Part shown: one piece after another, positions 8,613 through 33,594 of the stretch
Layout of the letters: every line of letters begins with the position of its first letter
How positions within the stretch are numbered: the stretch's first letter is position 1
Source of the DNA: Cyclobacteriaceae bacterium
Lineage (GTDB): Bacteria > Bacteroidota > Bacteroidia > Cytophagales > Cyclobacteriaceae
NCBI GenBank assembly: GCA_003565295.1
Contig: PXCO01000340.1
Location: 1-34,230, forward strand
DNA length: 34,230 nt
Direction of reading: 5' to 3'
Notes under the pieces: generated by a model
The model's database searches: none
Seen by the model: the letters and a program-made list of their open reading frames with translations, nothing else
What the model was told of the DNA's origin: nothing
Program-made: the position numbers and the translations under genes

Positions 8613-8727
8613 ATTTTATCTCCAAATTTTTAGGGTACGAAAGAGGAAATCAAGAGATTTTTCGTTAATTTATTGAATAAAGCTCAAATGGTTAAGGGCA
8701 AAATTTTTGTCCGGTATTTTCCAGTTC

Positions 8728-9645: not shown

Positions 9646-9646
9646 T

Positions 9647-10366: not shown

Positions 10367-12066
10367 AATACAATACGGTCATTTTGTGGAAGGCTTTGTT
10401 TATCGTTCTCGGCATTTGGGTATTGGCCATACTTGCGGATGAATTTACCTTGTTTCGGTGGGACCTCACCGAGGAGGGCAGGTATAGCGTAAGTGAGTCC
10501 ACGAAGGAAGTACTAAGGACATTGGAAGAGCCTTTGGAGGTGGAAATCCTCCTTACCGGCAACCTGCCGGGAGGCATGCGTAGGTTTCAAAAGTCCATAG
10601 AAGAAACCATCAAGACATTTAACGCCTACAGCTCCCAACCCATCAGGTTTTTTTATCAGGATCCACTTGCCCTTCCGGAAGATATCCGGGAAGAATACAT
10701 TTTCACCTTATCCGACTATGGCATTAACCCTACTAATTTGCATGCTGCTGAGGGAGGAGGTCAGACCACCCGGTTGATTTTTCCGGGGATTGTGGTGAGA
10801 AATGAGGTCTACGAGGTAGGAACCCTCCTGCTGAAAGGCGAAAAGGGGATGTCCCCGGACCAAATCCTCAATAATTCCATAGAAAACCTGGAATACGAGA
10901 TTAGCTCGGCGATAAAACGCTTGACTAGCAGGCACCAAAGGGCCATAGGGATGATCATAGGCCATGGGGAAATGGACGAAGATGATGGGTTTGGGGTGGT
11001 GGAGGCTTTGCATGGGGATTATGAAATTTATAAAATACCCATGGAGCAGGCTGAAAAAGTGGAGGATTTATTGGAATTTGAAGTGCTCATTGTTGCAGGC
11101 CCTAAGGAACCATTTAATGAACGAGAGAAATTCCTGCTCGATCAATACCTCATGTACGGGGGCAATCTTCTGGTGTTTTTGGATCAATTGGCTTTTGACC
11201 TTAAAGAAGCGGGAGGCGAAGGTACGGTGGCCATGCCCTTTGACACCGGGCTAGATGACTTGTTATTCAGATATGGCATTCGTATCAATAAGGATTTGAT
11301 TCAAGACTTGAATTTCGGCCATCATCCCGTGGTTGCAGGTGATTTTGGGGACCAACCACAAATTGTGCCCCTGCCCTGGCCGTTTTATGTGATGGCGGGG
11401 AGAATGGCCACGCACCCCATCACCAAAGGGCTGGATCAGCTTCAGTTCAGGTTTGTGAGCACTTTAGATACCATCAAGGCAGATGGCATTCAAAAAACCC
11501 CCCTGGTCTTTTCCAGTGATTATAGCAAGGTTTTAACCGCTCCACTCCGGCTGGCCTTTGAAGATATGGCGGTGCAGCCGGATATGGAAACTTTTGGTAG
11601 TCAGCGCCTTCCTTTGGTGTACCTTTTGGAAGGGGAATTTAACTCTTATTTTAAAAACAGGTTTCTACCAGATGGCTTTGACAAGAACTTGTTCAGGGAA
11701 AGTGGCACCGATGGTAAAATATTAGTGGCAGGTGATGGCAGCTTGGTAAAGAGTAGTTTGGACCCCAAGAGCGGAGAACCCCTTCCATTAGGTGAGGACC
11801 CCTTTGGGGACGTAGTGACCGCAAACAGGGATTTTCTACAAAATGCCGTACAGTACATGATCGATCCAGATGGGCTGATAAGCACCAGAACCAAACAATA
11901 CCAAATCAGGCCCCTTAATAGGGTGAAAATCCGAAACCAAAAGGCTTTTTGGCAAATGGTGAACGTGGCGTTGCCAGTAGGTTTCATACTATTGATAGGC
12001 TTGGTGATTAAGCTCTCCAGAAAGAAACGGTATGAGGGTAAGCGTACTGGGTATTTAAAGAAATAA
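10363..12066 (+). CDS. gldG: gliding motility ABC transporter auxiliary protein GldG
   Basis: A 567-residue protein with an N-terminal membrane segment (about residues 7-26), a large extracytoplasmic ABC-auxiliary domain and a C-terminal membrane segment just before a basic tail (KLSRKKRYEGKR). The conserved opening is DLTEEGRYSVSESTKEVLRT, typical of GldG. I chose ATG 10363 because it forms the ATGA overlap with gldF and has AGGA just upstream; an in-frame ATG at 10342 would add seven residues. It likely supports the GldA/GldF transporter at the cell envelope. No hairpin terminator is evident after it. Confidence 0.92.
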   Translation: MKYNTVILWKALFIVLGIWVLAILADEFTLFRWDLTEEGRYSVSESTKEVLRTLEEPLEVEILLTGNLPGGMRRFQKSIEETIKTFNAYSSQPIRFFYQDPLALPEDIREEYIFTLSDYGINPTNLHAAEGGGQTTRLIFPGIVVRNEVYEVGTLLLKGEKGMSPDQILNNSIENLEYEISSAIKRLTSRHQRAIGMIIGHGEMDEDDGFGVVEALHGDYEIYKIPMEQAEKVEDLLEFEVLIVAGPKEPFNEREKFLLDQYLMYGGNLLVFLDQLAFDLKEAGGEGTVAMPFDTGLDDLLFRYGIRINKDLIQDLNFGHHPVVAGDFGDQPQIVPLPWPFYVMAGRMATHPITKGLDQLQFRFVSTLDTIKADGIQKTPLVFSSDYSKVLTAPLRLAFEDMAVQPDMETFGSQRLPLVYLLEGEFNSYFKNRFLPDGFDKNLFRESGTDGKILVAGDGSLVKSSLDPKSGEPLPLGEDPFGDVVTANRDFLQNAVQYMIDPDGLISTRTKQYQIRPLNRVKIRNQKAFWQMVNVALPVGFILLIGLVIKLSRKKRYEGKRTGYLKK

Positions 12067-12379
12067 AAGAAGGATTGCAGACAAATATTTTAGAGAATAT
12101 GCAAGCTAATGGGTGCTTTTATGATTTTATTTCTAAATTTACCCTGTTAACAACCAATCTTAACAAAAAGTCCATACCTGCTAGCTGTGCCTACCTATAT
12201 ATACCGCTGATTATGTATGGTTTAGACGCAGATAATAAGGACGAAATTTAACAATTGAGATCAAATGAAATCGAGCATGAGGGATTCGTCACTCGGAGGG
12301 ATGATATAATCATGCGAGATTCCACCCCGACCTGCGGTACGGGGCAAGTTATGGTCATTGAAAAGCAAATTATAAACAT
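12067..12379. other. gldG-dnaN intergenic region
   Basis: This 313-base gap has no convincing gene. The first 190 bases are AT-rich, with no exact TAnnTTTG element and no DnaA-box cluster that I can see, so there is no sign of an origin next to dnaN. The last 123 bases are repeat element copy A, which runs up to the dnaN start codon. Confidence 0.6.
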
Positions 12380-12384
12380 ATGAA
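12257..12384 (+). repeat. dispersed hairpin (REP-like) element, copy A
   Basis: The copy begins with TGAAATCGAGCATGA (12266-12280), continues through a hairpin in which CCCCG and CGGGG pair around CTGCGGT (12325-12344), and ends at AAACATATGAAA, which contains the dnaN start codon. The 41-base core 12316-12356 matches 35 of 41 bases with the reverse complement of copy B at 13768-13808. The 15-base head also occurs exactly at 29428 (copy C). Confidence 0.8.
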
Positions 12385-13504
12385 ATTTATTGTTTCCTCT
12401 TCTTCCCTTCTTAAGCACCTATCTTCCATCAATGGAGTGGTAACTACCAATCCTGTGGTGCCCATTTTGGAAAACTTTCTTTTTGAGATCAAGGACAGTA
12501 ACCTTACCGTTACCGCATCCGATTTGCAGACTTCTATGATTACTGAAATAGAAGTAGAGGCAAAGGAGGATGGCAGTATAGCAGTTCCTGCCAAAATTTT
12601 AATTGAAACCCTAAAAAACCTTCCCGAGCAGCCAGTAACCTTTAGTATAGATAAGGAGACCTACAGTGTGGAGATCAGTTCGGATAACGGACGCTATAAG
12701 TTAGCCGGAGAAAATGCCACAGATTTCCCGAAAATTCCAACGGTAACGAATGCCACTACAGTGGACATGTCTACAGCCGTGCTCAGCCAGGCAATCAACA
12801 ACACTATTTTTGCCACCAGTAACGATGAACTAAGACCCGCCATGACGGGGGTTTATATCAACCTGAGCGATACCAACACCACATTTGTGGCCACGGATGG
12901 TCATAGGCTTATCCGGTATCGAAGGGTGGATATAGCTTCTCCCGAGTCTGCCAGTATCATTGTGCCCAGGAAAGCCCTTAACCTGTTGAAGGCTACCCTT
13001 CCCACGGAAAATGTACCCGTGGCAGTAGAGTTCAATAATAGCAACGCCTATTTTAAGTTTCACAACATCAAAATGATATGTAGGCTTATCGATGAGCGTT
13101 TCCCGGATTACGAAAATGTAATCCCACTGGACAATAACAACGATATGACCATAGACCGCCTCGAATTCCTTAGTTCACTAAGAAGGATAGCGATCTATGC
13201 TAACAAGACTACCCATCAGGTAAGGCTTAAACTCACTGGAAGCGAACTTCAGATTTCCGCAGAAGACCTTGATTTCTCTAACGAGGCGAATGAAAGGCTA
13301 TCCTGCGATCACGAAGGCGAAGATATTGAGATAGGCTTCAACGCAAAGTTTTTGGTGGAAATGCTCAACAACATTACAGCACCACAGGTCACCATGAAGT
13401 TCAGTGCCCCTAATAGGGCAGGGCTAATACAACCTTCTGATCTGAATGAAAATGAGGATATCCTCATGCTGGTGATGCCGGTGATGCTCAGCAACTACGT
13501 TTAA
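12380..13504 (+). CDS. dnaN: DNA polymerase III subunit beta (sliding clamp)
   Basis: A 374-residue clamp of standard length. The ring-forming protein tethers the replicative polymerase to DNA. It opens MKFIVSSSSLLKHLSSINGV, contains NPVVPILENFLFEI and FVATDGHRLIRY, and ends LMLVMPVMLSNYV, the conserved C-terminus near the binding groove. The start codon lies at the very end of repeat copy A. It is not next to dnaA or recF in this window, which is usual in Bacteroidota. A strong terminator follows 4 bases after the stop. Confidence 0.97.
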   Translation: MKFIVSSSSLLKHLSSINGVVTTNPVVPILENFLFEIKDSNLTVTASDLQTSMITEIEVEAKEDGSIAVPAKILIETLKNLPEQPVTFSIDKETYSVEISSDNGRYKLAGENATDFPKIPTVTNATTVDMSTAVLSQAINNTIFATSNDELRPAMTGVYINLSDTNTTFVATDGHRLIRYRRVDIASPESASIIVPRKALNLLKATLPTENVPVAVEFNNSNAYFKFHNIKMICRLIDERFPDYENVIPLDNNNDMTIDRLEFLSSLRRIAIYANKTTHQVRLKLTGSELQISAEDLDFSNEANERLSCDHEGEDIEIGFNAKFLVEMLNNITAPQVTMKFSAPNRAGLIQPSDLNENEDILMLVMPVMLSNYV

Positions 13505-13508
13505 TGTG

Positions 13509-13533
13509 AAGGCTCCAAAGGGAGCCTTTTTTT
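13509..13533 (+). terminator. intrinsic terminator after dnaN
   Basis: AAGGCTCC (13509-13516) pairs with GGAGCCTT (13521-13528) across a 4-base loop (AAAG), followed by an unbroken run of T. It starts 4 bases after the dnaN stop. Confidence 0.92.
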
Positions 13534-14062
13534 ATCCTAGGCTACTAGCCATCCAAACCGATACTACCCCATAGTTTACCTAGTGTTATGTTAACCAAAC
13601 TATGGACAATTATCTCCCGCAGATACCTAAGGGGCCTGAGGTATTGGCTGGGTTTCATACAGATTTCAGCCATTATGAATATCCAGGTGTAAGTCATTGG
13701 ATTGGGGATATCGGCGTGGTTTGGGATCCATTGTTTGATTTTCATATGTTTAAAATTTTTCTGTGGCGGTCATAATCTGCCCCGTACCGTAGTTCGGGGT
13801 GGAATCTCCCCATTATAATCATTCCTATGTGTGTCGCTTGTTGCGTCATGGTCGATTTCATGGCATGATCTGAAAACCGGATAGCGTTTCTCATAAGATC
13901 AATTTTTCCATAACCAGTACTGCCATTTCTTCCGCACAAATTTAAATCGGCTTCAAATCTCTTTTGGCATGCGTATAGGATAATGGATAATAATTAGGGA
14001 GATAGTAATTAATTTGTAAATTGAACTCGTAATCCGGTATGTTTTAACCCTATTCTGTACCA
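13534..14062. other. dnaN-AraC intergenic region with a repeat copy and decayed-looking frames
   Basis: This 529-base gap carries repeat copy B (13741-13873, inverted). A plus-strand frame from ATG 13602 to the TAA at 13775 codes for 57 residues (MDNYLPQIPKGPEVLAGFHT and onward), has protein-like composition, and runs into copy B; it may be a gene remnant. On the minus strand a 66-codon frame begins at 13745, right at the end of copy B. I do not recognise either, and neither is well supported. The rest (13874-14062) is AT-rich with no clear signal. Confidence 0.5.
13741..13873 (-). repeat. dispersed hairpin (REP-like) element, copy B (inverted)
   Basis: Read on the minus strand, it has the same order as copy A: TGAAATCGACCATGA (14 of 15 bases, at 13860-13846), the core at 13808-13768, then AAACATATGAAA ending at 13741. 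The distance from head to ATG is 115 bases, against 114 in copy A. It therefore forms an inverted pair with copy A around dnaN. Similarity stops just past the ATGAAA. Confidence 0.78.
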
Positions 14063-14926
14063 ATGGTGCCAAATTCCGAGAAATATAAACAGTTTGACGA
14101 GACCAGAAAAGAGCTCAGGCCTTACGGGACCACCTGTGAACTTTGGCTCCCCAAGATCATGCAAAAGGCAGATCGGCATAATGAAATAGAGCTCAATTTT
14201 CTACCGGAGGGGAGGATGACCTATATTGTAAATAGCAGGAAGGTATGCATCCCGACAAAAAAACTTGCCATCTTTTGGGCCCTGACTCCACATCAGATTA
14301 TCCATTTTGACAAAGAAACCCCCTACTATGTTTGCACCATTCCCTTTGTGCAATTCCTGGACTGGGGGCTTCCGGGTAGGTTTGTGGACCGGGTGCTGAA
14401 AGGGGAGGTCATTGTTTCTGAAAGCAGTGGGGACGGTACTCTGGATCAACTGTTATTTGAGCATTGGATCAGTGATTTCCAGCAAGGGGACAGGGAGGCC
14501 ATGGAGGTTTCCATGCAGGAGATCCGGGGCAGGTTGGGTAGGTTGGCGCTATCCACCAAAAAAGTACCAAAAATAGAAGAATCGACCCGAATGCCCCAGG
14601 CCGCCAATCTAGTGGAAAAAATGGTATTGTTTATCGCTGATAATTATACTGACCCTATTAAGACTGCGGACATAGGGAGAGCTGTGGGTCTTCACCCTGA
14701 TTATGCCAACTCCCTATTCAAAAAGACCTTTGGCACCACGCTAAGTGATTACCTGGTGGAGCAACGTCTTTTCCATGCACAGCGAAGACTTTCCCTAAGT
14801 GGGGAAACCGTGACCAATATAGCCTTTGATTCTGGATTTAATTCCATTAGCAGGTTTAATGCTGCCTTTGTAAAGCACTGTGGATGCAGCCCCAGGGAAT
14901 ATAGGAAAAAGTATAGCTATTTGTAG
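14063..14926 (+). CDS. AraC-family transcriptional regulator
   Basis: A 287-residue regulator. The N-terminal half (about 1-165) looks like a cupin-type sensor: HNEIELNFLPEGRMTYIV followed by beta-rich sequence, as in MelR-like members that sense sugars. The C-terminal half has two helix-turn-helix motifs, IGRAVGLHPDYANSLFKKTF and ETVTNIAFDSGFNSISRFNA, ending with the family signature CGCSPREYRKKY. It converges on the giant T9SS gene with only 5 bases between the stops. Its target is unknown; sugar- or polysaccharide-responsive control is a guess from the N-terminal type. No exact -7 element is present; TTAATTTG at 14009 is one base off. Confidence 0.92.
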   Translation: MVPNSEKYKQFDETRKELRPYGTTCELWLPKIMQKADRHNEIELNFLPEGRMTYIVNSRKVCIPTKKLAIFWALTPHQIIHFDKETPYYVCTIPFVQFLDWGLPGRFVDRVLKGEVIVSESSGDGTLDQLLFEHWISDFQQGDREAMEVSMQEIRGRLGRLALSTKKVPKIEESTRMPQAANLVEKMVLFIADNYTDPIKTADIGRAVGLHPDYANSLFKKTFGTTLSDYLVEQRLFHAQRRLSLSGETVTNIAFDSGFNSISRFNAAFVKHCGCSPREYRKKYSYL

Positions 14927-14931
14927 ACTGC

Positions 14932-17900
14932 TCATTTCAATACCCAAACTTTTTTGGTGTCCTTGAAATCCCTGGTCAACACCCTGCAAAAGTAGAGACC
15001 TGCCGCTCCCGGGGGCAGTTGCACTTCTATGTTGTAAATGCCGGGACTCAGGGATTCGTTATGCAATAGTAGAGATTGCTGACCTGTGGCCGTACCGAGA
15101 TCAATGCTTACCCTGCTGGTCTCTGGAATATGTACCTCAAACATGAAAGTTCCCTGGTTGGGATTAGGGTAAGGTGCCCCCATATAGAATTCTTCCGGGA
15201 TACGACTGCCTACCTTTTGAATGCCCGTGATGGGATCAACGGTAAATGATAGGGGCGTGGACCACTCGCTTTCACCCGTCACATTATACGCCGAAACCCT
15301 CCAATAATATGGCTCACTCTGAGGGGTGGCATTCCAAAGGAAAAGGGTGTCGATGGTGTATTCATCTGCCGCAACAGATTGAAACAAGCTATCCCTGGCT
15401 ACCTGTATGCGATAACCATCGGCCTCCCTGGAGGGGTTCCAGTGGAATTGTTCTGATTTCACCAAAATCCCTGTTGGAAATACGGGATCAGGCATAGGGG
15501 GCAAAGGTGGCACAAAGGTCCAGGCTTCCACAGTGTCTGCTTTAAGCTCTTGATTTCCTGTTTTATCCTCTGCAATACTGTAAAAGGCATATAGGCTTCC
15601 TTCTTCAGCGCGGAATACACTTAGGGTGTCGGTGTTTTGGGTAAGCCAAGGCACAAACTCAGTACTGTCCTTTGACACATAAACCGTATATTGGGCCACT
15701 CCGCTACCATCATCTTCCCCAGTCCACGTAACCTCAAAGGAGGGGGGCAAGCGATGGGGAAGGGGATTTACCATGGAAACGGGAGGAACCTGATCTATTG
15801 TATTGGTATAGGGGCCATAGGGCGGAGCAGGTCCCCAAGGGCCTACTCCATCAAAATTCACATGGGCCTGGTTTTGGAACAGCGTATTATGGCCAAGGCT
15901 GTCCAAGGGTTCCACTGTAAAACTTACCCAACCTATGTTATAACCTGCCGTGTCAATTGGGGGAAGGTATCCGGCCATAGGGTCATCAGGAAGCTCCATG
16001 GTTTCGGGATCAAGAGAACGGTGAACCCAGTAGATTTCCCTGCTCTCAGAATCCACCGTGCCAGTCACCTGCACGAGGAGGTTTTTATCCGGCCGCATGT
16101 CCACCATCACGTCAAAATATTGCCCCCCTTCCAGGGGCATCTTCCATCTAAGGAAGCCTATTTCTGTAAAGTTCACAGTGTTGATGTCAAAATTGGTGTC
16201 CAAGGTGTCACGGATAAACACCTCTGCCGCAGGCGCGGTGGCATCTTCCTTATTCCAATAGTCAATCTGATAGCTGAATAGCTCTCCTTCTGCGATATAC
16301 CGCTGCTTTTCTGAGAGGGGAAGCTCAGGACCCTGGTCAAAACCAATGGGGCCGTATTTGTCTTCAGGGGTCACGGAGGAGATGCTGGCAATTGTCTTTA
16401 TGGTCTTTTTGATATCCTGTTCACAATTGGCCGAAAGGGAAAGCCCAATATCCATTCCTTCCACTGTACTGCCCACCATTGTGCCTACGATATCCCCAAC
16501 TTTTTGCCAATTTCTAATGTTTTCTAACCTTTGATCCAAGTCCCTACGGCTCTGGTTAAACTTCCTTATCCTTCTGGCTACGGCCCTTGAAGTCCGCGTT
16601 CCCATAGTCCTGGCCAAAAATCTAATGCCTCCAACTGGCGTGATAGGTGTATTAAGAAAGGCATTGACACAATTTAAACCCGAATTGAAAACATTAAAAT
16701 AAAGGTCTGGCTGGGAAAATATGGTTTTGGCTGTATTCCACATTCCCCTTTCCCTTCTGTTGGAAAAAGGATCCCATAGGTTGTCCTTTATGGTGTTTGC
16801 ACTTGAGTAAAGGCATTTTCCCCAATCGGCCATCAGGCCTTTGAATGCGGTGTTTAGGAATTTCTCTTTATTTGCCTCATAGTAGGCTTTCGTGGCCGTG
16901 GTGGCAATACTACCCACTGATCTACCCATAGCGCTTGCACAATCATCAGAAATACCAGATAACCTAGGGTCGTTGAAATAGGCATATATCCTCTCTGTGG
17001 TTTCTTTGACTTGATCTTGGATAATATCCAGTCTTCTGGCTGATGCGGCTTCCAGATGCCATTGTTGAAGGAGATGCAGCATGGAATCCAACTCGGATAT
17101 TGCCATCATGTAATCAAATAAATCTTCTTCAGATAGAAACTCAAATTGATCTGCAAAACCTTCGTCCACGGTGACATCGAGCTCGAAATCCTTCATCTCT
17201 GGCAGATAAATACTCAGCTCTATGTCCAAAAACTCTCCAGCAGGCAGATTATTAATGAATAGTGGAAGGTGAATTTCTCCGTCAATCACTTCATAAAGGC
17301 TGTTTTCCTCCAAATCTGCGTGATCGCCTACTGCCTCAATGGTGTTGTCTATCCTAAAAGTCCCCGATTCTGGGATCCCTGAAATTAAAATTCCAATAAA
17401 GTTTTTATCCACCAAGCCTGTATTCTTCACCCTAACCACATATTTCTGAAACCTTCCTATTCGTAATTGATCCCTTCCTATAATATCCACTACTATTTCC
17501 TGACGGTCTGAGGCAATAAGCGCTATGGGGGTTTCATGAAACAAGAATGGACTCCCAAAAAGGCCCACACTATATGCTCCCGGGGCCAAATCACTGAAGT
17601 CATGGGTGAATTCCAACAGGCCGGCGTTTACCCATCGGGTGCTTAGGCCAATCAAGGTAGAATCTTCCACATTCATTAAAACCAATGAGTCCAATGCCGT
17701 GAACCCAAACCCATGGACTTCAAAGGTGCTGATGCCCTGGCCGGTTTCATAGGCAGAGAGCTCCAGGATCTCTTGGTTGCCATTTGAATGGGGAGGGGTG
17801 GCCAAAGTGCCGGCATGGATAAGGTAATCCCTTCTCTGATTCCCATCAAGCGTATGTTGGAGCACAGCGGAGTCCATGTACTTCAGGTAGTACCTCCCAG

Positions 17901-25022: not shown

Positions 25023-26069
25023 ATGGAAATCGCAACCAAACCAATGGACATCACCACTTTGAAAAACAGGTGGGAAACTTTGAAAGCCGAAAACAAAGCG
25101 TTAAGAATCAGGGATGCCGCTAAGAAACTCGGCGTGTCTGAAGCCACCCTTCTGGCCACAAATATTGGCAATGGGGTGACCCGCCTGGAAGGACAATGGT
25201 CTGAGTTACTCCTGGCATGCAAAGGGCTGGGCAAGGTCATGTCATTGACCCGAAGTGAAGGCTGCGTGCTTGAGCACAAGGGTACCTTCCAGAAAATCAA
25301 TGTACACGGTAGAGCTCCCCAACAAATTGCCACGGTGATTGGCCCCATAGAGCAACGGGTCTTTTTTAAGGGGTGGAAATTCGGCTTTGCCGTTACCCAA
25401 TCTACCCCAAGGGGAATCATGGAAAGCCTACAGTTCTTTGACCAGGAGGGTACCGCGGTGATGAAGATCTTTCTTCAAGAAAAAAGTAACAGGGATGTTT
25501 ACCAGCAAATTGTGGATACCTACAAGCATCCCACGCAGTCACCCTATCTGGAGGAAGTCCCCTTTGAAAAAGAGGAATATGCAGAGACCATAGATCAAGA
25601 AGCTTTTGTTGCAGAATGGGAGCAAATGAAGGATACCCATGACTTTTTTGGGATGCTTAAAAAGCATAAGCTTCATCGCCTGGAGGCATTGAAAAGGATA
25701 GGGGAGAAGTGGGCCTATCAGGTGGATAAAACCTGTGTTCAAAAGATACTGAACATGGCCTCTGAAACCAAACTGCCCATTATGATTTTTGCAGGCAACA
25801 AAGGGAACATACAAATTCACCAAGGGAAAGTTCGAACCATCCGGCAAATGGGAAACTGGATCAACGTGATGGATCCGGAATTCAATATGCACCTCAACGA
25901 AGAAGTAGTGGATGCTGCCTGGGTAGTTCACAAGAACACCAACGATGGAATTGTCTCGGCCGTGGAACTATTCGATAAAGATGGAGAAATGGTAGCCCAG
26001 TTCTTTGGGCTGAGAAAACCGGGTATTCCACAGAAAGAAGAATGGAAAGTCCTGGTCGATAGCCTCTAG
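25023..26069 (+). CDS. hmuS: haem-handling protein, HemS/ChuS/HmuS type
   Basis: 348 residues, the normal length of the two-lobed HemS family, which binds and in some members degrades haem in the cytoplasm. It has no signal peptide. The N-terminal lobe contains LRIRDAAKKLGVSEATLL and IGPIEQRVFFKGWKFGFAV; the second lobe begins near residue 185 with MKDTHDFFGMLKKHKLHRLE, where His206 is the likely equivalent of the proximal haem His of HemS/ChuS. This is not the CobN-like protein that bears the name HmuS in Porphyromonas gingivalis. It is tightly packed after hmuV, so imported haem would meet it first. Confidence 0.88.
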   Translation: MEIATKPMDITTLKNRWETLKAENKALRIRDAAKKLGVSEATLLATNIGNGVTRLEGQWSELLLACKGLGKVMSLTRSEGCVLEHKGTFQKINVHGRAPQQIATVIGPIEQRVFFKGWKFGFAVTQSTPRGIMESLQFFDQEGTAVMKIFLQEKSNRDVYQQIVDTYKHPTQSPYLEEVPFEKEEYAETIDQEAFVAEWEQMKDTHDFFGMLKKHKLHRLEALKRIGEKWAYQVDKTCVQKILNMASETKLPIMIFAGNKGNIQIHQGKVRTIRQMGNWINVMDPEFNMHLNEEVVDAAWVVHKNTNDGIVSAVELFDKDGEMVAQFFGLRKPGIPQKEEWKVLVDSL

Positions 26070-26086
26070 TAGCTCAAGACATCCTT

Positions 26087-26111
26087 TTAGGAATCAGCCT
26101 AACCCTTTTTT
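26087..26111 (+). terminator. weak hairpin with T-run between hmuS and the TonB receptor
   Basis: TTAGG (26087-26091) pairs with CCTAA (26098-26102), followed by CCC and six T. The 5-bp stem is weak, so at most it would partly end transcription ahead of the receptor gene. It ends 3 bases before the start codon. Confidence 0.25.
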
Positions 26112-26114
26112 GTC

Positions 26115-28433
26115 ATGAAGATTAGAATTAATCCAATTAAAGTTAATATACTTTTGCTGCCCTTCATTTTGGCGGCATTCGTAGTATGGGCAGGAAGACC
26201 GGGAGACGAATTATCAGTTAAGGATGCCAGGGGATTTCCCATTCCCCATGCGATTGTCAAGTGGGGAGAGGAGAATTTTGCCACGGTAGATGAGAATGGG
26301 GTCTTTCGCATTCCTGAGAGCATGGGAGAGGCAGAGGAAATTGAGATCTTGGCCCTGGGTTATGCGTCTAGGAAGGTCCAGCTTTCTCACCTGAACCCCG
26401 GGCAGGATATTTTGCTAAAGGAACATTTGGGACAGCTCAACGAGGTAGTTATAGCTGCCACCCGAACCAACCGCAGTGTGGCAGATCTTCCCATGCCCGT
26501 GCAAGTGATCAATCAGGAAAAAATCCAGGAAACCGGGGGCATGCGCCTCTCCGAGGTGCTCAGGGAGCAGACCGGGCTTCAAGTGGTGTCCAATCATGGT
26601 GCAGGTCTTCAGATGCAGGGGCTTTCTTCGGATTACATCCTTATTCTATTAGACGGAGAACCCATGATTGGCCGCACCGCAGGGACCTTTGACCTGGATC
26701 GTATTTCGGTGAGTAATATAGAGCGGATTGAGGTGCTGAGGGGGCCTTCATCCGCCATTTATGGAAGTGAGGCCATGGCCGGGGTCATCAATATCATTAC
26801 AAAAGAGAGTACTGAACCCGCTCATGGCACCGTTCAAGGCCGATACAGGAGTTTTAACACCATGGACCTGACAGCGGAAGGGGGAGTAAACCAAAATGGT
26901 TGGAATATTTATGGTTTCTATAACCGTTTTTCTACGGATGGGTTTGACCTCAATCCCTCCGTGCTGGGCAATACCCAATCCCCTTACCATGCCCATACCG
27001 GGCAATTGAAGGTAGGTAAGAAATTGGGGCAAAAGTGGGAGATGAAGACCTTCCTACGAGGTTACGCCGAGGACTCAGAGGACATGATGGGGATTAGAGA
27101 AGGAGGCGAGACACTGGCAGCAGGAATGAGGGGTAAAAGAAGAGAGCTTAATATAAACCCCACCCTTATTTTCAGACCAAACGAGGATTGGCTTTTGACT
27201 TTGAGGGGCATGACTTCACTATTCAGCACCCGTAGCAGCAGCTGGTTTATGGAATCCGGGGAAAGCATAGATATTCAGGATTTTGATCAGGTGTATCACC
27301 GTACAGAATTCCAGGTGGACCATCAATTGACCAAGGATCAACTACTCACCTTTGGCATGGGACAGCTTTTGGAGACGGTAGATGCGACACGGTATGATGA
27401 ATTAAACCGCTTCGATGCAGGGTACCTGTTTTTGCAACATCAATGGGAGGCAGGTAAGAAGTGGAACCTGGTAAGCGGGATGCGGGCAGACCTTCACAGC
27501 CAATACGGTGGGCAGGTAAGTCCCAAGGTATCCGCAATGTATCAGTTTTCAGATACTTTCAGTTGGCAGGCTTCCCTGGGTGCAGGCTTCAAGGCACCCG
27601 ATTTCAGGCAGCTCCTACTAAACTTCAACAATGCCGCGGCGGGATATTATGTGTTTGGGGCGAATTTGGTACAAGAGGGTATTGCCAACTTGCAAGCACA
27701 AGGTCTGGTACGGCAGATATTGATCGACCCCACTCAATTTGGAGAACTGAAAGCGGAAAGTAGCTGGGCAATCAATACCGGAGGCAGATGGCAAGCCCAT
27801 GAGGATGTGCTGGTGCAGGTTAACTTCTTCAGGAATCATATTGAAAACCTGATAGAAACCGCACCGGTGGCCAGATTATCTACAGGACAGAATGCCTTTT
27901 CCTACTTTAATATCTCTTCTGTGATTACCCAGGGAGGGGAGCTGGATGTCCTGTACAGGATCAACGAGCGTCTTCAGCTATCATTGGGTTACATGTATTT
28001 GGACAGCAGGGACAGGGATGTGCTGGCGGCCATAGACGTGGGAGATATTTTCAGAAGGGACAGCCAAAATCGAACCCGTCAGGTCACCCGCTCCGACTAT
28101 GGTGGGCTGTTTAACCGTAGCCGTCACAGCGGTAACATTAAATTGAACTATTATGAGCCATTTACGGGAATTTGTACTGCCCTTAGGGGCATTTACCGGG
28201 GACCTTTTGGATTTGGGGATGTGAACGGGAACCTTATCCTCGATGATCCCAGGGAATATGCACCCGGAATTTTTCAGACCAATCTCACCCTTTCCAAGAC
28301 CTTCGAAAGGGGACTGATGTTCGAGGTTGGAGGCTTCAACCTCTTGAACCAACTCAATATTTATGATCCCACCAACCCTGGCAGGACCTATTTTATAGGG
28401 GCAAAAGTCCCTCTGCACAGGTATTTTAACTAG
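26115..28433 (+). CDS. hmuR: TonB-dependent outer-membrane haem receptor (HmuR-like)
   Basis: 772 residues. After the leader comes a carboxypeptidase-regulatory-like domain (DARGFPIPHAIVKWGEENFA, about 35-110), then the plug (LNEVVIAATRTNRSVADLPM; IERIEVLRGPSSAIYGSEAM; GVINIITK), then a 22-strand-type barrel. FKAPD at 492-496 corresponds to the FRAP-box of haem receptors. It would move haem across the outer membrane using TonB energy. Its place between a HemS-type gene and a HmuY-like lipoprotein supports haem as cargo. It is shorter than SusC-type receptors and has no SusD partner, which argues against glycan transport. Confidence 0.88.
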   Translation: MKIRINPIKVNILLLPFILAAFVVWAGRPGDELSVKDARGFPIPHAIVKWGEENFATVDENGVFRIPESMGEAEEIEILALGYASRKVQLSHLNPGQDILLKEHLGQLNEVVIAATRTNRSVADLPMPVQVINQEKIQETGGMRLSEVLREQTGLQVVSNHGAGLQMQGLSSDYILILLDGEPMIGRTAGTFDLDRISVSNIERIEVLRGPSSAIYGSEAMAGVINIITKESTEPAHGTVQGRYRSFNTMDLTAEGGVNQNGWNIYGFYNRFSTDGFDLNPSVLGNTQSPYHAHTGQLKVGKKLGQKWEMKTFLRGYAEDSEDMMGIREGGETLAAGMRGKRRELNINPTLIFRPNEDWLLTLRGMTSLFSTRSSSWFMESGESIDIQDFDQVYHRTEFQVDHQLTKDQLLTFGMGQLLETVDATRYDELNRFDAGYLFLQHQWEAGKKWNLVSGMRADLHSQYGGQVSPKVSAMYQFSDTFSWQASLGAGFKAPDFRQLLLNFNNAAAGYYVFGANLVQEGIANLQAQGLVRQILIDPTQFGELKAESSWAINTGGRWQAHEDVLVQVNFFRNHIENLIETAPVARLSTGQNAFSYFNISSVITQGGELDVLYRINERLQLSLGYMYLDSRDRDVLAAIDVGDIFRRDSQNRTRQVTRSDYGGLFNRSRHSGNIKLNYYEPFTGICTALRGIYRGPFGFGDVNGNLILDDPREYAPGIFQTNLTLSKTFERGLMFEVGGFNLLNQLNIYDPTNPGRTYFIGAKVPLHRYFN

Positions 28434-28467
28434 TAATTAAAAATCAAAATTAAAACCATAATAAAAA

Positions 28468-29091
28468 ATGAAAAAGCAATTCTGTTTTTATAGTGTGGCC
28501 CTTTTGTGCCTTCCTTTTCTAATGGCTTGCAGCGAGGATGAATCGCCGGTAGTCGTTACTCCATTGGAGGTGGAAACGGTGGAAAACCTGCATGCACCCA
28601 ATGATGTGGTTAACAGGCAGACAGGAGAGGTAATTCAGGAAAACCCCTTTCAATACTTCAGTTTTGAGCAAAATGGCCTGGTGGAATCTGTGGATGGGGA
28701 CTGGGACATCGGTTTCAAGGGTACCACCATTATCGTGAATAGCGGCATCAGTGGGCCGGGAAATGCCAGGGGTATGGTGATGCAGGGGCTATTCTCGGAA
28801 ATGTCCGAAGTGCCTTCCGATGCTTCTTTAAGAGTGGATACCGAGGACGTGTTGGCAATACCTCATGGCTCTGGGAATGGCTGGTATAACTACAATAACA
28901 CCACCCACCTGATAAGCCCAATTCCTGGTAGGTTCTTGGTCTTCCAAACGAATGCGGGTAATTATGTAAAGATGGAGATTTTGAGTTATTACAGGGATAA
29001 TCCTCCAATGGACGAGGCGGATTTTACTACGGGGGGGTACTATACCTTCGAATACGTTTTGCAGCTTAATGGTAGCAGAGTATTTGAGTGA
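28468..29091 (+). CDS. hmuY: HmuY-family haem-binding lipoprotein
   Basis: 207 residues. The lipobox LMAC gives lipidation at Cys21, and the next residues SEDES form the acidic surface-export signal of Bacteroidota, so it should sit on the outer face of the outer membrane. The all-beta body contains YFSFEQNGLVES, DWDIGFKGTTIIVNSG, GNGWYNYNNTTHLISPIPGR and NYVKMEILSYYRD, the order seen in HmuY proteins. HmuY captures haem for the HmuR receptor, encoded just upstream (34-base gap). Haem ligands differ between HmuY homologues (His-His or Met-Met), and I cannot assign them here; His in AIPHGSG and the Met residues near GMVMQG are candidates. Confidence 0.82.
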   Translation: MKKQFCFYSVALLCLPFLMACSEDESPVVVTPLEVETVENLHAPNDVVNRQTGEVIQENPFQYFSFEQNGLVESVDGDWDIGFKGTTIIVNSGISGPGNARGMVMQGLFSEMSEVPSDASLRVDTEDVLAIPHGSGNGWYNYNNTTHLISPIPGRFLVFQTNAGNYVKMEILSYYRDNPPMDEADFTTGGYYTFEYVLQLNGSRVFE

Positions 29092-29100
29092 TTTGGCTGT

Positions 29101-29247
29101 TAGCTTTTAGCCTTTAGCTTTTAGCCTCGAGCTGTTAGCTTTTAGCTTCGAGCTTTTAGCTTTTAGCCTTTAGCTTTTAGCCTCGAGCTGTTAGCTTTTA
29201 GCTTTTAGCCTCTAGCTTTTAGCTTTGAGCTTTTGGCTTTGAGATTT
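29101..29247 (+). repeat. tandem heptamer array 1 (TAGCTTT type), 21 units
   Basis: Twenty-one consecutive 7-base units with no insertion or deletion, consensus [T/G]AGC[T/C]T[T/C]. Units 1-6 are identical to units 9-14, giving a 56-base higher-order period with 48 identical bases (from 29101 and from 29157). It begins 9 bases after the hmuY stop. The last three units are diverged. Two stray units (GAGCTTG, TAGCTGA) occur near 29390-29403. Confidence 0.95.
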
Positions 29248-29427
29248 TAGGTGCTGGATGAATGGGTTGTGGGTGATGTGTATGGTTTTTTCGGGTAATT
29301 GAGGGGGGAGGTTTTAAGCTGTTTGCATTAGTAGGGTTTTTTGTGTAACTAACTAAGTTTATGTATAATTAAATGAATGTAAATGGCTTGAGCTTGTAGC
29401 TGAAAGTTTAACAAACCATATCCCCTT
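29248..29427. other. G/T-rich spacer between array 1 and repeat copy C
   Basis: 180 bases with no convincing coding frame. The left part is strongly G and T biased on the plus strand, including GGGGGGAGG near 29306; the right part is AT-rich and could hold the promoter of the four-helix-bundle gene, but no exact TAnnTTTG is present. Confidence 0.5.
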
Positions 29428-29511
29428 TGAAATCGAGCATGATACAAACGACCCACTGAGGGATGCCCCCCGATAGCCATCAGGATGACCACTGAAAAAA
29501 ATAAACACATG
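29428..29511 (+). repeat. dispersed hairpin (REP-like) element, copy C
   Basis: TGAAATCGAGCATGA (29428-29442) is identical to the head of copy A. It is followed by CACTGAGGGATG (CACTCGGAGGGATG in copy A), a shorter degenerate hairpin CCCGATAGCCATCAGG, and GATGACCACTGAAA leading into ATAAACACATGAAA. The last bases contain the chosen start codon of the four-helix-bundle gene. It is about 33 bases shorter than copies A and B. Confidence 0.65.
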
Positions 29512-29853
29512 AAAAACTTCAAAAAAATGAAAATCTGGCAAAAAGGAATGGAAATAGCCGAGGAAACGTATAAGGTCACTCGTCAACTTCCAAGAGCAGA
29601 ATTATATGCCTTGGCGAGTCAAATGAATCGGTGCAGTGTTTCCATTCCTTCTAACATTGCAGAAGGGGCTTCCAGGAGATCTGAAAAGGACCAAGCGCGT
29701 TTTATTCAATTTAGTATGGGATCTAGCTTTGAATTAGAGACGCAATTGATCCTTTCTTCTAGGTTGTACCCTGAAATTTCTGTGGAGGGGCTTTTGGCGT
29801 TGCTGGAGGAGGAGCAGAAGATGTTGGCGGGGTATTATAGTAAGTTGGGGTAG
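29509..29853 (+). CDS. stand-alone four-helix-bundle protein (S23/bAvd-like family)
   Basis: 114 residues, all alpha. The family motif is CSVSIPSNIAEGASRRSEKD, then FIQFSMGSSFELETQLILSS, matching the four-helix-bundle proteins first known from 23S rRNA intervening sequences (S23) and later as the Avd accessory protein of diversity-generating retroelements. No rRNA or reverse transcriptase is nearby, so this is a free-standing copy whose role is unknown; such copies are frequent in Bacteroidota. I chose ATG 29509 (MKNFKKMKIWQKGMEIAEET), the usual start of the family; ATG 29485 would add eight residues encoded by repeat copy C. The gene lies between two heptamer arrays and behind copy C, which makes mobility or recombination-related spread plausible. 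Confidence 0.88.
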   Translation: MKNFKKMKIWQKGMEIAEETYKVTRQLPRAELYALASQMNRCSVSIPSNIAEGASRRSEKDQARFIQFSMGSSFELETQLILSSRLYPEISVEGLLALLEEEQKMLAGYYSKLG

Positions 29854-29860
29854 GGGTTTG

Positions 29861-30023
29861 GGTGGTTGGTTGTTAGCTTTTAGCTTCGAGCTTTTAGCTT
29901 CAAGCTTCGAGCTGTTAGCTGTTTGCTTTTAGCTTCAAGCTTTTAGCTGTTTGCTTTTAGCTTCAAGCTGTTAGCTTCAGGCTTCGAGGCTTTTAGCCTC
30001 TGGCTATTAGCTGGTGGTTGGTT
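29861..30023 (+). repeat. 11-bp direct repeats bracketing array 2
   Basis: GGTGGTTGGTT occurs at 29861-29871 and again at 30013-30023, immediately on either side of heptamer array 2. It could be a duplicated target site or a by-product of array growth. Confidence 0.7.
29874..30014 (+). repeat. tandem heptamer array 2 (TAGCTTT type), about 20 units
   Basis: About twenty 7-base units in the same direction as array 1, more diverged (AAGCTTC, TTGCTTT and TAGCTGT units), with one 8-base unit at 29986-29993. A 28-base period is visible between units 7-10 and 11-14. The stretch 29871-29900 is identical over 30 bases to 29133-29162 in array 1. The array begins about 20 bases after the four-helix-bundle stop. 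Confidence 0.93.
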
Positions 30024-30093: not shown

Positions 30094-33000
30094 TTAAAAG
30101 GAATTTACTTCTAGCTCGATGAGATTAATTCCGGGGGATAGGCGGATGGATTCAAATTGTGTATTTACTTTCTTTCCGTTTAGGGAAATGGCATCGTTGG
30201 GGCCATATGAAAGGTAAAGCTCTGCAGACATGTTGGAGGGGAGCTCAATGGTATATTTCTGCAGCCTGTTGGAGACTTTCTGAAAGGATGCTTTGACCTT
30301 GCCGGGTAAAAAAGGCACGGTAATTTGGGTCTCTGTGAGTTTGCCAAACCGGGGGCGGATTTCCAAGAGTTTCGCTCCCGGTACTTTGGGCATCATCCCC
30401 CACATTCTCCTAGCAATAATGTTACCGGGAACAGCTCCCCAGGCGTGGTTCCAGTCCGCATTTGGCTTGTATTTCATGTCCCAGGCCTCCAGGGTCATGG
30501 TGGAACCCAGAGCAATCATGTTCCACCAACTTCTGTCATGGGTAGCGGTCATCAGTTCCAGCGCATAGTCTGCCTCACCGGCATTGTACAATCCATCCAA
30601 CAGGTACTGAGAACCATAAACGCTACAGGCCATGCCCCGAGATTTGATGAATTCCACCACTGATTCCAAGTTTTTTTCAGGAACCAAGCCGAAGGCCAAA
30701 GGCATCATGTTCGCATGAAGGGAGGAATGACCGGCCCCTTCTCCATCTAAGTAGATACCCTTTGATGTGTCCATTAATTTTTGATTGAAGGATTTTCTCA
30801 CTTTTGCGGCCATCATTTCATATTCCATAGCCTCATCTTCTTTGTGGAGAAGGCGGGCAAATTCCCCCATTATCTCAAGGTTGCGGTAATAAAGCGCATT
30901 GATAACGGTATTAATGGGGGTGAAGACAAACCCGTCCCTTTCCCCTTCGGCGGTGGCCAACTCCCACCCGGTATCTTTTTGGGCCGGGGGCCAATCCACA
31001 ATATCCCTTAATTCAATCTCAGGATCTTTAAACCCCAATTTCTTCATGAATTCCGGTGTGGCCTTTTCAGAGCTTATCAAGCCATCTTCCCTGGCCAGTT
31101 CCATCAGGGTTTTATGCTTGAGGTCTTCGTAATAATGTGCAATAAGTTGGGTATTGCCTGTATAGAGATAATCCTCATAAAACATAAGTGCCACATGGAG
31201 CTGCCATTCGGTGGGCCAGGTAGGGTAACGCATAAAGTACTCCATACTCCTGCGGGCTATATTGTACTCCCAGTCCACCGCATAATGGCTGAGCTGGTTG
31301 ATATAGGCATCTGCCTCATAGGGAATTCTTTCCCGGTCACCGTCCACATAAACACCGGCGAAGGAGGTTGCCTTCATGGTGTATTTACAGATATCCCAGA
31401 TTTGGTTAAGAATCGTATCCGAACTGCTAAAACTACTTTGATCTTCTTCAAAATACCCAAAAAAAGCCTGCTGTTTTAGATTATCGGGCTTATTTGGTGC
31501 TTCTATCTCGGCATACCGGAATGGAAGCAAAACTGGGAAGGAATCAGGAAGGGCCACTGCCGCTGGGCCGGTATTCCGTTCATCTGGGGGCAAATTCAGC
31601 ACATACATCTTTTGGTCGGGGGAAACCGGTACTTTCATCTCCTGAAAGCGGATATGCCCCTGAGGGTTCCTTTGAATGCGATTGCCTTCAAGTTGTTCTC
31701 CCAGTCTGACGATAAGCGTGTCCGGGTTTTCACTTGAATAATCGAAGGCCAGGTTGGCAAAGGCAGCTTTTCCAAAGTCTGCAAACCAGGTATCTCCTTC
31801 TACACGGTTTAGGGATTTTGGAGACAGGTTTTCTTGGATAAAGTGATTACTTGTGGTTAGGTAGTCCGTTTTAATGCCTGTTTCAAAGGATTGACTATCA
31901 GCGTATCTGCTGGTGCGGTTATCCTGGTCCCAGATCCTGACTTTCCAGAAGTAGCGGGTGTTTTCTTGTAATTCCCCTCCTTCAAAGGGGATTTGGGTGG
32001 AAGCGTTGGCCACCTTTTTACCACTGTCCCAGACATCCCCAATATTCCTGTTGCTGTTTTCCTGGGAACTGCTGACCAATAGCTGATAGGCGGACTGAAA
32101 TTGGATGCCCTCGGGGACCTGCCATCCAAAATTTGGGGTTAGGGTAGATAATTGAAGCCCAGCCGGGTTCCGGATCAACTCCACATGAAGCCCCTTAGGG
32201 GCGGATGTGCTTTTGTCGGATAAGGACTCGGTCATGGCGTCCAGTTTCTCCCTGAATTTTTCAAGTTTTTCGGAAAAATTGGGATCCTTGATCAAATTGT
32301 TGGTTTCCAATGGATCACTTTCCAGGTGGTACAATTCTTCTATGGACTTGTCATTGATGTACCGGAAGTATTTCCATTCGGCAGTTCTGAGTCCTTCGCT
32401 GGGTGGGATGTTTTCGAATTCCCAGAGATGTTCTATCAAAATGGTGTCCCTACCAATGTTCTCTCCTTTTAATGAGGGGACCAGGCTTTTGCCCTGGTAG
32501 CTACCTGGGATTTCCACTCCTGCCAGGTCCAGAATGGTGGCAGGGATATCTACATTTGCGGCCATCTCTTTTGAGTCCCGATGCTTGGCTACCCTGGGGT
32601 CAAATATCATCAATGGCACCCTTAAGGAGTTGTCGTACATCAGCCATTTTCCGGCAAGTTGTCTTTCTCCGGTGAAATACCCATTATCCCCCATTAGGAT
32701 GATCACTGTATTTTGATCCATCCCTTTTTCCTTGAGTTTTTCACGGATTTTAGCAATCTCCAGGTCAATGCCGGCGATCATCCTGTAGTAACCTTTCATG
32801 CTGTGCTGGTACTTCTCCGGAGTGTCATATCTCCAGGTCCAGCGCAGCCGGTTGAATCCGGCTTTTACCACTTCGGGCAAGGCTTCAAAAAAGCTGTCGT
32901 CCGAAAGTTCCGGGTCTGGGATGGTGACATCTTGTAACAGGTGATCTACCTCTTCCTGCCAAAAATACTGGAGCTCTGCACCATCGTGCGCATGAGGGGC

Positions 33001-33594
33001 ACTGAAGGAAAGGGACAGGCAAAACGGAGTGTTTTCATCGGCATCATCAATAAATTCTAAAGCCTGGTGTCCAGTATACCGTGTAAGATGGACTGTGTCC
33101 TCATGGATGGTTTTGTAAAAGTATCCCCTATGGTCTTTAAACTGGTTGTTGCGGTCGTAGGAGTCATGGGTATCGAACTGTCCCTGCATGTCTTTATGAT
33201 TTACCCCGAATTTCCCAAAAAATCCGACCTGATAGCCAGCCTCCTTTAGCAGCTTTGGATAAGCCACTTCCATGTATTCCCCCCGAATAGGGCCGGATTG
33301 AAAATTGTAGGCATGGGTTCTTTCGTACAGCCCTGTAAAAATGGTGGCTCTACTGCCGGCACAGATAGGGGTGGTCACCAGGGCATGGCTAAAATAACTG
33401 CCTTCCTCCGCCAGGCGATCCATCTCCGGTGTATGAACATAAGGATTGCCCACGTGCCCCAGCGCATCCCAACGTTGGTCATCAGTGAGAATGAAGATGA
33501 TATTGGGTTTTTGGGTTACTTGGTTTTTGGTTTGTCCAAATGAGGTGAGTACGTGAGGAAGTATTAAAAATAAGAAGAGTAGAATTTTCTGCAT
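30094..33594 (-). CDS. secreted bimodular sulfatase / GH78 alpha-L-rhamnosidase
   Basis: 1,166 residues with a signal peptide (MQKILLFLFLILPHVLTSFG). Residues about 28-465 are a type I sulfatase: metal ligands D38-D39, formylglycine motif C78-A-G-S-R82, then HAHDG at 203, GDNG at 302-305 and K316. From about 468 an Ig-like domain of the rhamnosidase N-terminus follows (PAGLQLSTLTPNFGW; TRYFWKVRIWDQDNR), then the GH78 catalytic barrel with VDGDRERIPYEADAYI (about 748-763) and the C-terminal WNHAWGAVPGNIIARRMWG. The same pairing (S1 sulfatase plus GH78) is known from the ulvan locus of Formosa agariphila, so sulfated rhamnose in ulvan-like algal polysaccharide is the likely target. The third motif position is Gly instead of the usual Pro or Ala. 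It stands alone, with no SusC/SusD pair in the window. Confidence 0.92.
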   Translation of the reverse strand: MQKILLFLFLILPHVLTSFGQTKNQVTQKPNIIFILTDDQRWDALGHVGNPYVHTPEMDRLAEEGSYFSHALVTTPICAGSRATIFTGLYERTHAYNFQSGPIRGEYMEVAYPKLLKEAGYQVGFFGKFGVNHKDMQGQFDTHDSYDRNNQFKDHRGYFYKTIHEDTVHLTRYTGHQALEFIDDADENTPFCLSLSFSAPHAHDGAELQYFWQEEVDHLLQDVTIPDPELSDDSFFEALPEVVKAGFNRLRWTWRYDTPEKYQHSMKGYYRMIAGIDLEIAKIREKLKEKGMDQNTVIILMGDNGYFTGERQLAGKWLMYDNSLRVPLMIFDPRVAKHRDSKEMAANVDIPATILDLAGVEIPGSYQGKSLVPSLKGENIGRDTILIEHLWEFENIPPSEGLRTAEWKYFRYINDKSIEELYHLESDPLETNNLIKDPNFSEKLEKFREKLDAMTESLSDKSTSAPKGLHVELIRNPAGLQLSTLTPNFGWQVPEGIQFQSAYQLLVSSSQENSNRNIGDVWDSGKKVANASTQIPFEGGELQENTRYFWKVRIWDQDNRTSRYADSQSFETGIKTDYLTTSNHFIQENLSPKSLNRVEGDTWFADFGKAAFANLAFDYSSENPDTLIVRLGEQLEGNRIQRNPQGHIRFQEMKVPVSPDQKMYVLNLPPDERNTGPAAVALPDSFPVLLPFRYAEIEAPNKPDNLKQQAFFGYFEEDQSSFSSSDTILNQIWDICKYTMKATSFAGVYVDGDRERIPYEADAYINQLSHYAVDWEYNIARRSMEYFMRYPTWPTEWQLHVALMFYEDYLYTGNTQLIAHYYEDLKHKTLMELAREDGLISSEKATPEFMKKLGFKDPEIELRDIVDWPPAQKDTGWELATAEGERDGFVFTPINTVINALYYRNLEIMGEFARLLHKEDEAMEYEMMAAKVRKSFNQKLMDTSKGIYLDGEGAGHSSLHANMMPLAFGLVPEKNLESVVEFIKSRGMACSVYGSQYLLDGLYNAGEADYALELMTATHDRSWWNMIALGSTMTLEAWDMKYKPNADWNHAWGAVPGNIIARRMWGMMPKVPGAKLLEIRPRFGKLTETQITVPFLPGKVKASFQKVSNRLQKYTIELPSNMSAELYLSYGPNDAISLNGKKVNTQFESIRLSPGINLIELEVNSF

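Follow-up and report, generated by a model that had tools for sequence, protein, structure and literature searches.

A four-helix-bundle gene between two heptamer arrays in a Cyclobacteriaceae genome: a probable atypical member of a widespread cassette resembling rRNA intervening sequences

The window considered here is a stretch of 34,230 nucleotides from a Cyclobacteriaceae bacterium (assembly GCA_003565295.1, contig PXCO01000340.1), which is contig C95 of a 5.62 Mb draft genome. Towards its end, a gene for a 23S rRNA intervening-sequence protein (IVP; also S23 or four helix bundle protein) lies between two tandem arrays of seven-base units, and the locus raises the question of whether gene and arrays belong together and, if so, what kind of element they form. 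IVP/S23 proteins are common and their structures have been solved; to our knowledge, they have no known function. On balance, we favour the view that the window carries an atypical member of a widespread cassette, in which an IVP gene is placed inside two heptamer arms in the manner of the intervening sequences (IVS) of ribosomal RNA (rRNA), lies between the genes of an operon and has arms that would pair in the transcript. The traits of the class are a protein of the IVP family under purifying selection, arms with a period of seven bases, inversion of the two arms with a G-rich/C-rich polarity, filling of the gap from stop to start codon and co-orientation with the neighbouring genes. The window is an atypical member, as its two arrays run in the same direction. 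The gene and its arrays are as follows.

29092 to 29250, plus strand: array A, degenerate TTTTAGC-type heptamers, about 22 in number (Tandem Repeats Finder, TRF: 22.7 copies, 75% matches, score 178)
29485 to 29853, plus strand: IVP gene, 122 amino acids (PF05635, TIGR02436)
29873 to 30005, plus strand: array B, TTTTAGC/TTCAAGC-type heptamers, about 19 in number, with a higher-order period of 28 bases (TRF)

The initial annotation had described an S23/bAvd-like gene between two same-direction arrays of TAGCTTT type, and this description holds. The protein matches PF05635 with 106.4 bits (cut-off 33.8) and TIGR02436 with 106 bits (cut-off 24), and both arrays read TTTTAGC on the plus strand. Array B is covered by the TRF rows 29873-29977 (15 copies, score 98), 29889-29976 and 29925-30005, a 21-base row extending the array to 30005, and at a minimum score of 30 these two arrays give the only period-7 rows in the window. 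Array A ends 234 bases before 29485 and array B begins 19 bases after the IVP stop codon; comparison with relatives suggests that the ATG at 29509 is the likelier start of the gene. Three consecutive TTTTAGC units (up to three mismatches) match 26 times in the whole genome and at three places, with 19 matches in the window (13 in array A and 6 in array B), 6 in one cluster on contig C224 and 1 on C252; the array pair beside the IVP gene is therefore not due to chance. The reversed pattern has one match in the whole genome.

The relation between gene and arrays was followed in PF05635 loci of related genomes (39 of them with surroundings of up to 20 kb), in 80 loci of named GTDB species and in 14 loci of cyanobacterial plasmids (14 of 40 plasmid records with an IVP match). 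The 80 named loci are the best 80 of at least 583 confirmed candidates for a query made of five IVP proteins; as three of the five come from fad junctions, these junctions are over-represented among the loci. From 165 loci, 9 having no called neighbour on one side were dropped, which gave 156 IVP loci, mostly of Bacteroidota; loci L005-L009 (pattern loci) and L078 (a mis-specified stretch of 501 bases) were left out, and L004 had no open reading frame (ORF) in the inverted-arm test. Neighbour genes are the longest ORFs of at least 100 amino acids, taken with no gene finder; junctions were clustered by neighbour sequence and their gene names are our own reading of the sequences.

The density of arrays with a repeat at lag 7 is 0.99 per kb up to 150 bases from an IVP gene, 0.21 between 150 and 300 bases and 0.025-0.036 beyond 2 kb (39 loci). 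The same loci have a comparable peak at lag 8, with 10 arrays in the 150-base zone where lag 7 has 14; at lags 4-6 and 9-13 there are almost none. In the 100-base flanks of the 156 loci, lags 7, 14 and 21 alone surpass the intergenic controls by more than 0.03, the lag-7 value being 0.390 against 0.324. The heptamers themselves vary from locus to locus (GAGTAGT, AGAAGCG, TTGGTAC, GGTTCAT, GATGACA, TGAGATN and more).

The arms are usually inverted, as was seen when each left flank was aligned to the reverse-complemented right flank of the same locus and the score compared with cross-locus pairs. Of 74 loci, 55 have an inverted similarity of their own that exceeds the 95th percentile of these pairs, 39 exceed the 99th and 17 the 99.9th; own direct similarity passes its 99th in 13. 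For the 156 loci the corresponding inverted counts are 111, 55 and 14, in a test that is strict because its cross pairs include loci with similar units. An inverted score of at least 15 was reached by 46/74 IVP genes and by 10/276 control genes of the same loci, and these 10 include three IVP genes duplicated between loci, one false ORF inside an array and two genes (L053, 6844-7438, minus strand; L076, 12501-13050) which we take to be REP-associated-transposase-like from an MPNHFHF-type motif and which have inverted flanks of their own. The proposal of a gene-plus-array unit in the initial annotation was right in kind, and the excess of arrays near IVP genes upholds it; its same-direction layout, true of the window, is the minority form. 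The unit is broader than proposed, usually inverted, nested in operons and IVS-like.

The arms also have a polarity. Among 102 loci scoring at least 15, the G-rich arm lies 5' of the IVP gene in 93 and 3' in 6, with 3 undecided. When full-length cassettes were folded to minimum energy, an arm-to-arm stem of at least 15 base pairs formed in 93/115, as compared with 29/113 cassettes with swapped right arms, which makes pairing of the arms in RNA plausible on the part of the folding model. Half of the cyanobacterial plasmid loci (7/14: L160, L161, L214, L216, L217, L221 and L223) have inverted arms at p <=0.022 against cross pairs, for example GGGAGTA/TACTCCC in L160 and AGGGAAC/GTTCCCT in L214; in the other 7 the inverted arms do not reach p 0.022.

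The cassettes usually sit within operons. Both neighbours are co-directional for 137/156 IVP genes and 299/565 control genes (p 7e-17), and the upstream neighbour for 147/156 and 406/565, respectively. Where the arms are clear and the neighbours co-directional (90 loci), the outer edge of the left arm is a median of 2 bases away from the upstream stop codon, and that of the right arm a median of 4 bases short of the following start codon. The same junctions recur across many genera (numbers of upstream/downstream cluster members): fadB-fadA 35/36, fadA-acyl-CoA dehydrogenase 27/26, panB-rlu 7/6, metH-metF 6/5, sucB-lpd 4/4, plus others.

The fadB-fadA junction, sampled at 50 loci of 56 listed fadA orthologues, gives occupied and empty states of the same site. 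IVP is present in 11 of the 50, 12 are unresolved and 27 are resolved with no IVP gene, 15 of these 27 gaps being shorter than 40 bases. Three gene-less junctions hold a heptamer hairpin scoring above 40 mononucleotide shuffles: L182 (15.4, shuffle mean 7.4; lag 7 0.51, lag 8 0.46), L198 (13.6, shuffle mean 6.5; lag 7 0.62) and L194 (12.4, shuffle mean 6.6; lag 8 0.53). No such hairpin was found in the other 24/27, of which 15 are too short to test. The end of the L165 junction resembles a right-arm remnant, yet its score is like that of its shuffles, and the L210 junction has a different palindrome, of GTCATGCTGACGAAGGAGGCATC type (score 16.2). Most empty junctions in relatives are short and have no array, and three are in a hairpin-only state; hence gene and arms mostly come and go together. 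Given these array-free empty junctions and the presence of IVP at many different junctions, the cassette may be a non-autonomous mobile unit, as the initial annotation had considered.

The encoded protein is under strong purifying selection, dN/dS being 0.04-0.13 in 8/10 close pairs and dS saturated in the other 2. The AlphaFold2 monomer of the window IVP has four helices with a mean pLDDT of 94.5, and the nearest solved folds are 2gsc (Xanthomonas XCC0516; TM 0.76 by query length for 2gsc_B) and 2rld (Bacteroides BT_0352). A homopentamer is described for the Xanthomonas IVP protein in the available part of PMC4990558. PF05635 is the sole Pfam family in the window protein at E 0.001, so it has no known recombinase domain, and PADLOC gave no anti-phage defence family for the IVP proteins of the window and of L015.

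The closest known counterpart is the rRNA IVS. According to the available text of PMC4990558, the IVS in the 23S rRNA of Coxiella holds an IVP ORF and a 28-bp terminal stem, is excised by RNase III and carries tandem GACAGAT heptamers upstream of the ORF in strain-variable copy number, and the distribution of rRNA IVS is sporadic. In Candidate Phyla Radiation (CPR) bacteria, IVP ORFs lie in insertions of 16S and 23S genes (PMC11270868, in part). The cassettes share with rRNA IVS (of Coxiella, Leptospira and others) the IVP ORF, the terminal inverted repeats forming a stem and the heptamers adjoining the ORF; array A of the window, like the Coxiella heptamers, lies 5' of the IVP ORF. They differ in lying between protein-coding genes and not in 23S rRNA, and in arms made of degenerate heptamers that change from locus to locus. 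Searches against Rfam gave no match at the gathering score in the window or in seven other loci, and the window element is not inside rRNA. The open-access literature found describes IVS elements only from rRNA, and a search of it for operon-nested IVP genes bordered by heptamer arms found none described; subscription papers and preprints lie outside this coverage.

The cassette would be read together with the surrounding operon, and its arms would pair in the transcript to form a long stem. This stem would keep the insert harmless, perhaps through excision by RNase III as in rRNA IVS, and the IVP, likely a nucleic-acid-binding pentamer, would help the cassette to persist.

A number of observations weigh against this view, and the first concern the window itself, where the following further features are needed.

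28468 to 29091, plus strand: HmuY-like gene, upstream and co-directional, last of a haem-uptake cluster (PF14064)
29391 to 29406, plus strand: weak short left arm AGCTTGTAGCTGAAAG, partial complement of array B (inverted local score 11.6, p_off 0.119, not significant)
30094 to 33594, minus strand: sulfatase fused to alpha-L-rhamnosidase, downstream and convergent (PF00884, PF16347, PF17389)

Relatives have terminal inverted arms, whereas the window's own arms fail the inversion test, with an inverted score of 11.6 (p_off 0.119) against a direct score of 40. The downstream neighbour is convergent and not co-directional, an arrangement in which only the upstream neighbour is co-directional and which is shared by 10/156 IVP loci. 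The folded window cassette has 59 ORF-spanning pairs as compared with 0-88 in 12 shuffles, which is no better than shuffled flanks. Across the class, 31/156 IVP loci score below 12 and have no clear arms, the window among them, and arrays are often solitary in array-rich genomes, an IVP match being present in 1/30 array loci (about 3 kb each, some overlapping). The G-rich arm stays 5' of the gene in 6/6 loci with an antisense upstream neighbour, so that the arms seem to belong to the IVP gene rather than to the operon, and the cassette of L160, on a Nostoc plasmid, is antisense to both neighbours. Nor do the arms change as a selected stem would: in 12 close pairs (262 base pairs), 44 changes are confined to one side and 2 are double, each of these two being compensatory, against 1.8 double changes expected, and in 111 loci G:U-type mismatches are not in excess over A:C-type ones (141 vs 172), with a ratio of 0.82 in the arms and 0.78 in cross-locus alignments. 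These two results lend no support to selection on an RNA stem. Since double changes are not in excess and the G:U ratio resembles that of cross-locus alignments, arm turnover looks like replacement or copying of repeats and not like base-by-base compensation. Two such patterns had been named in the initial annotation as speaking against a unit, and each is seen in part: arrays are indeed scattered in some genomes, yet with an excess beside IVP genes, and a gene with no clear array is met in a part of the loci.

The window arrays could nevertheless pair in part, as their unit contains a four-base palindrome. Their pairing would proceed through the self-complementary AGCT core and would be weaker than that of inverted arms. 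The predicted duplex of arrays A and B has an energy of -116.6, against -84.9 (sd 5.3) for shuffled arrays and -110.3 when the order of units only is shuffled. Same-direction loci with such a palindrome, picked by eye, are the window (AGCT), L162 (AGCT), L058 (AATT) and L057 (TCGA), and their palindromes may be a matter of chance. L162, which lies between cas6 and cas4 in a CRISPR operon of Pseudanabaena, has the layout of the window, its AAAAGCT and AAAAGCC arrays running in the same direction, and nearly the same unit on the other strand.

The best surviving alternative, which we regard as rather unlikely though deserving of weight, is a mobile element acting at the level of DNA, in which the arms serve as terminal inverted repeats and the IVP, or a recombinase supplied in trans, recognises them in their DNA form; the co-orientation with operons would then come from the survival of harmless insertions, and RNA pairing would have no role. 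The polarity of the arms and its persistence beside antisense neighbours would fit such an element, as would the lack of a G:U or compensation signal and the gene-less hairpins at an otherwise occupied junction. So would the finding that arms match better within a locus than between species in 100/124 same-junction pairs (IVP identity at least 55%; the pairs are non-independent): in close pairs the arms can still be aligned, and in distant pairs they are unrelated while each matches itself, as in the Pontibacter loci L104 and L115 (18.6 and 21.0 within, 8.0 and 7.0 between). Against it stand the lack of a known recombinase domain in the window IVP, the co-orientation of 137/156 genes on both sides and units that differ widely among loci, which is not so in normal terminal repeats; inspection by eye, with no dedicated test, showed no target-site duplication.

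A second alternative holds that degenerate heptamer hairpins arise by slippage and fold-back copying at loosely constrained junctions, and that the IVP gene merely lands or survives there. Such a repeat hot spot would account for the IVP-less arrays of array-rich genomes (one genome, G002, has 66 heptamer pattern matches), for arrays far from IVP in L044, L045 and L075, for the hairpins of L182, L194 and L198 and for the small lag-7 excess of control intergenic regions (0.324 vs about 0.29 at neighbouring lags). The P6b stems of the Nostoc trnL intron also consist of seven-base repeats, and no such gene is mentioned in the available text on them (PMC4476775). We nevertheless find it unlikely, as arrays are enriched about 30-fold beside IVP genes, the arms hug the gene and share its polarity, and 24/27 resolved gene-less fadB-fadA junctions show no heptamer hairpin above shuffles. 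Moreover, TRAGANN arrays occur in 16 of 59 related genomes, and PF05635 matches in 47 of the 59; the arrays are found in 16/47 genomes with IVP and 0/12 with none (Fisher p 0.025, uncorrected for genome relatedness). The reversed pattern had been intended to serve as control but also describes a heptamer; it occurs in 12 genomes, none of them IVP-free; either orientation is found in 23/47 against 0/12 (p 0.0018, a post hoc union, likewise uncorrected). Inverted partners are few among the 30 array loci L247-L276 (L262 16.4, L259 14.4, L254 12.4), three of which (L257, L261 and L270) lie near contig ends and are not centred on the array.

That the IVP is a host regulator, binding RNA or DNA and using the repeats beside its gene to act on the operon around it, is very improbable: purifying selection, the recurrent junctions, a fold like Avd of diversity-generating retroelements (DGR) at weak E-values and the clustering of junction labels on a quick tree of 149 IVP proteins (29 changes vs a shuffled mean of 46.1) agree with it, and patchy presence (11/50 fadB-fadA junctions), the occurrence of one family at many unrelated operons and at least three gains or losses at each of the two main junctions, required by well-supported branches, speak against it. 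With this number of events, a single origin with losses is compatible.

Two further known kinds of element differ from the cassette. The resemblance of PF05635 to Avd is already in print (PMC10053308, in part), and the DGR Avd structures 8ube and 4dwl are weaker Foldseek matches to the window protein (E 0.1-0.3, probability 1.00); the fold is similar, but no reverse transcriptase lies near the window, the sole RVT_1 match of the genome being on contig C185 and the window on C95, and a DGR is rejected for this reason. RAYT/REP elements (REPtrons) consist of a single gene flanked by short palindromic repeats and are intergenic. The window IVP has no Y1 transposase match (PF05635 only), and the arms have a period of seven bases and are locus-specific.

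Returning to the IVS-like cassette, a broader reading may be put forward tentatively, as a possibility that we rate below the cassette itself: a large class of IVS type outside rRNA, in which an IVP gene plugs stop-to-start gaps with self-renewing complementary arms, and of which the seven-base stems of cyanobacterial introns, gene-less hairpins and solo heptamer arrays would be precursors or remains. As the arm sequence turns over while complementarity and the seven-base period persist, such an element would carry a rule for making a stem and not a fixed end sequence. If IVP genes are general operon cassettes, the function of the family, the origin of seven-base repeats in Bacteroidota and cyanobacteria and the spread of IVS would be joined in one question. 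This can be tested in Flavobacterium or Pedobacter that can be cultured, at the fadB-fadA and fadA-acyl-CoA dehydrogenase junctions, both states of which, empty and occupied, are present among related genera.

Other heptamer systems can be compared with the cassettes. STRR repeats of cyanobacteria are tandem arrays of heptamers. The available part of PMC4476775 describes the Nostoc P6b repeats as class I TDNGATT and class II NNTGAGT; they are degenerate, occupy both sides of the stem and keep a similar structure when the motif is swapped, and they differ from the cassettes in lying inside a group I intron. Class II resembles, by eye, the TRAGWNN-like units of IVP cassettes. Arrays of TAACTGA in Beggiatoaceae, cyanobacteria and some Bacteroidetes are likewise tandem, seven bases in period and mostly intergenic, in places with mixed units, but they are described as direct repeats in the part of PMC4679880 available; its main text contains none of the terms 'intervening sequence', 'S23' and 'four helix bundle'. 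Bacterial tandem repeats of constant size and variable sequence (20-21 and 52 nt) have a fixed period with family-specific units as well; their periods are other ones, and the available text makes no link to IVP (PMC8161180).

In the window, the first base of array A directly follows the stop codon of the co-directional HmuY-like gene, and the haem-uptake cluster at 25023-29091, which lies directly before the array, comprises a HemS/ChuX-type protein, a TonB-dependent receptor and the HmuY-like protein. The sulfatase/alpha-L-rhamnosidase fusion has 1166 amino acids and a match of 76% identity in a genome of the same genus (G001). There, neither an IVP gene nor a clear array follows the orthologue of hmuY (75% identity); the sulfatase orthologue is about 318 kb away, and the site is therefore no clean empty counterpart of the window. 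A second IVP copy of the window's genome (L002, C126 5873-6196) has an internal stop codon and inverted AATTGAA/TTTCAAC arms, and a locus of G001 (L042) has the same left arm. The other heptamer-family cluster of the genome (C224 11253-11396; locus L008, 1422-1668) consists of 2.3 copies of a 109-base unit with short AAGCTAA arrays, and contig C224 has no TIGR02436 match.

Other cargo between inverted arm pairs came as a noisy list, from which four loci were followed by eye. L045 has a long heptamer hairpin with no IVP match at 6756-7292, and in L075 an array-crowded region (8713-15169) includes one inverted pair enclosing a non-IVP ORF. In L041 (9431-9746, 10205-10520) and L053 (9668-9714, 10102-10159), palindromes with a shared loop stand as one hairpin copy on each side of the IVP gene. 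On cyanobacterial plasmids, IVP genes are found inside CRISPR operons in L162, L216 and L219; two of these loci are of type I-D, with the gene between cas6 and cas4, and the third is of type III-B, with the gene between cas10 and a cmr3-family gene.
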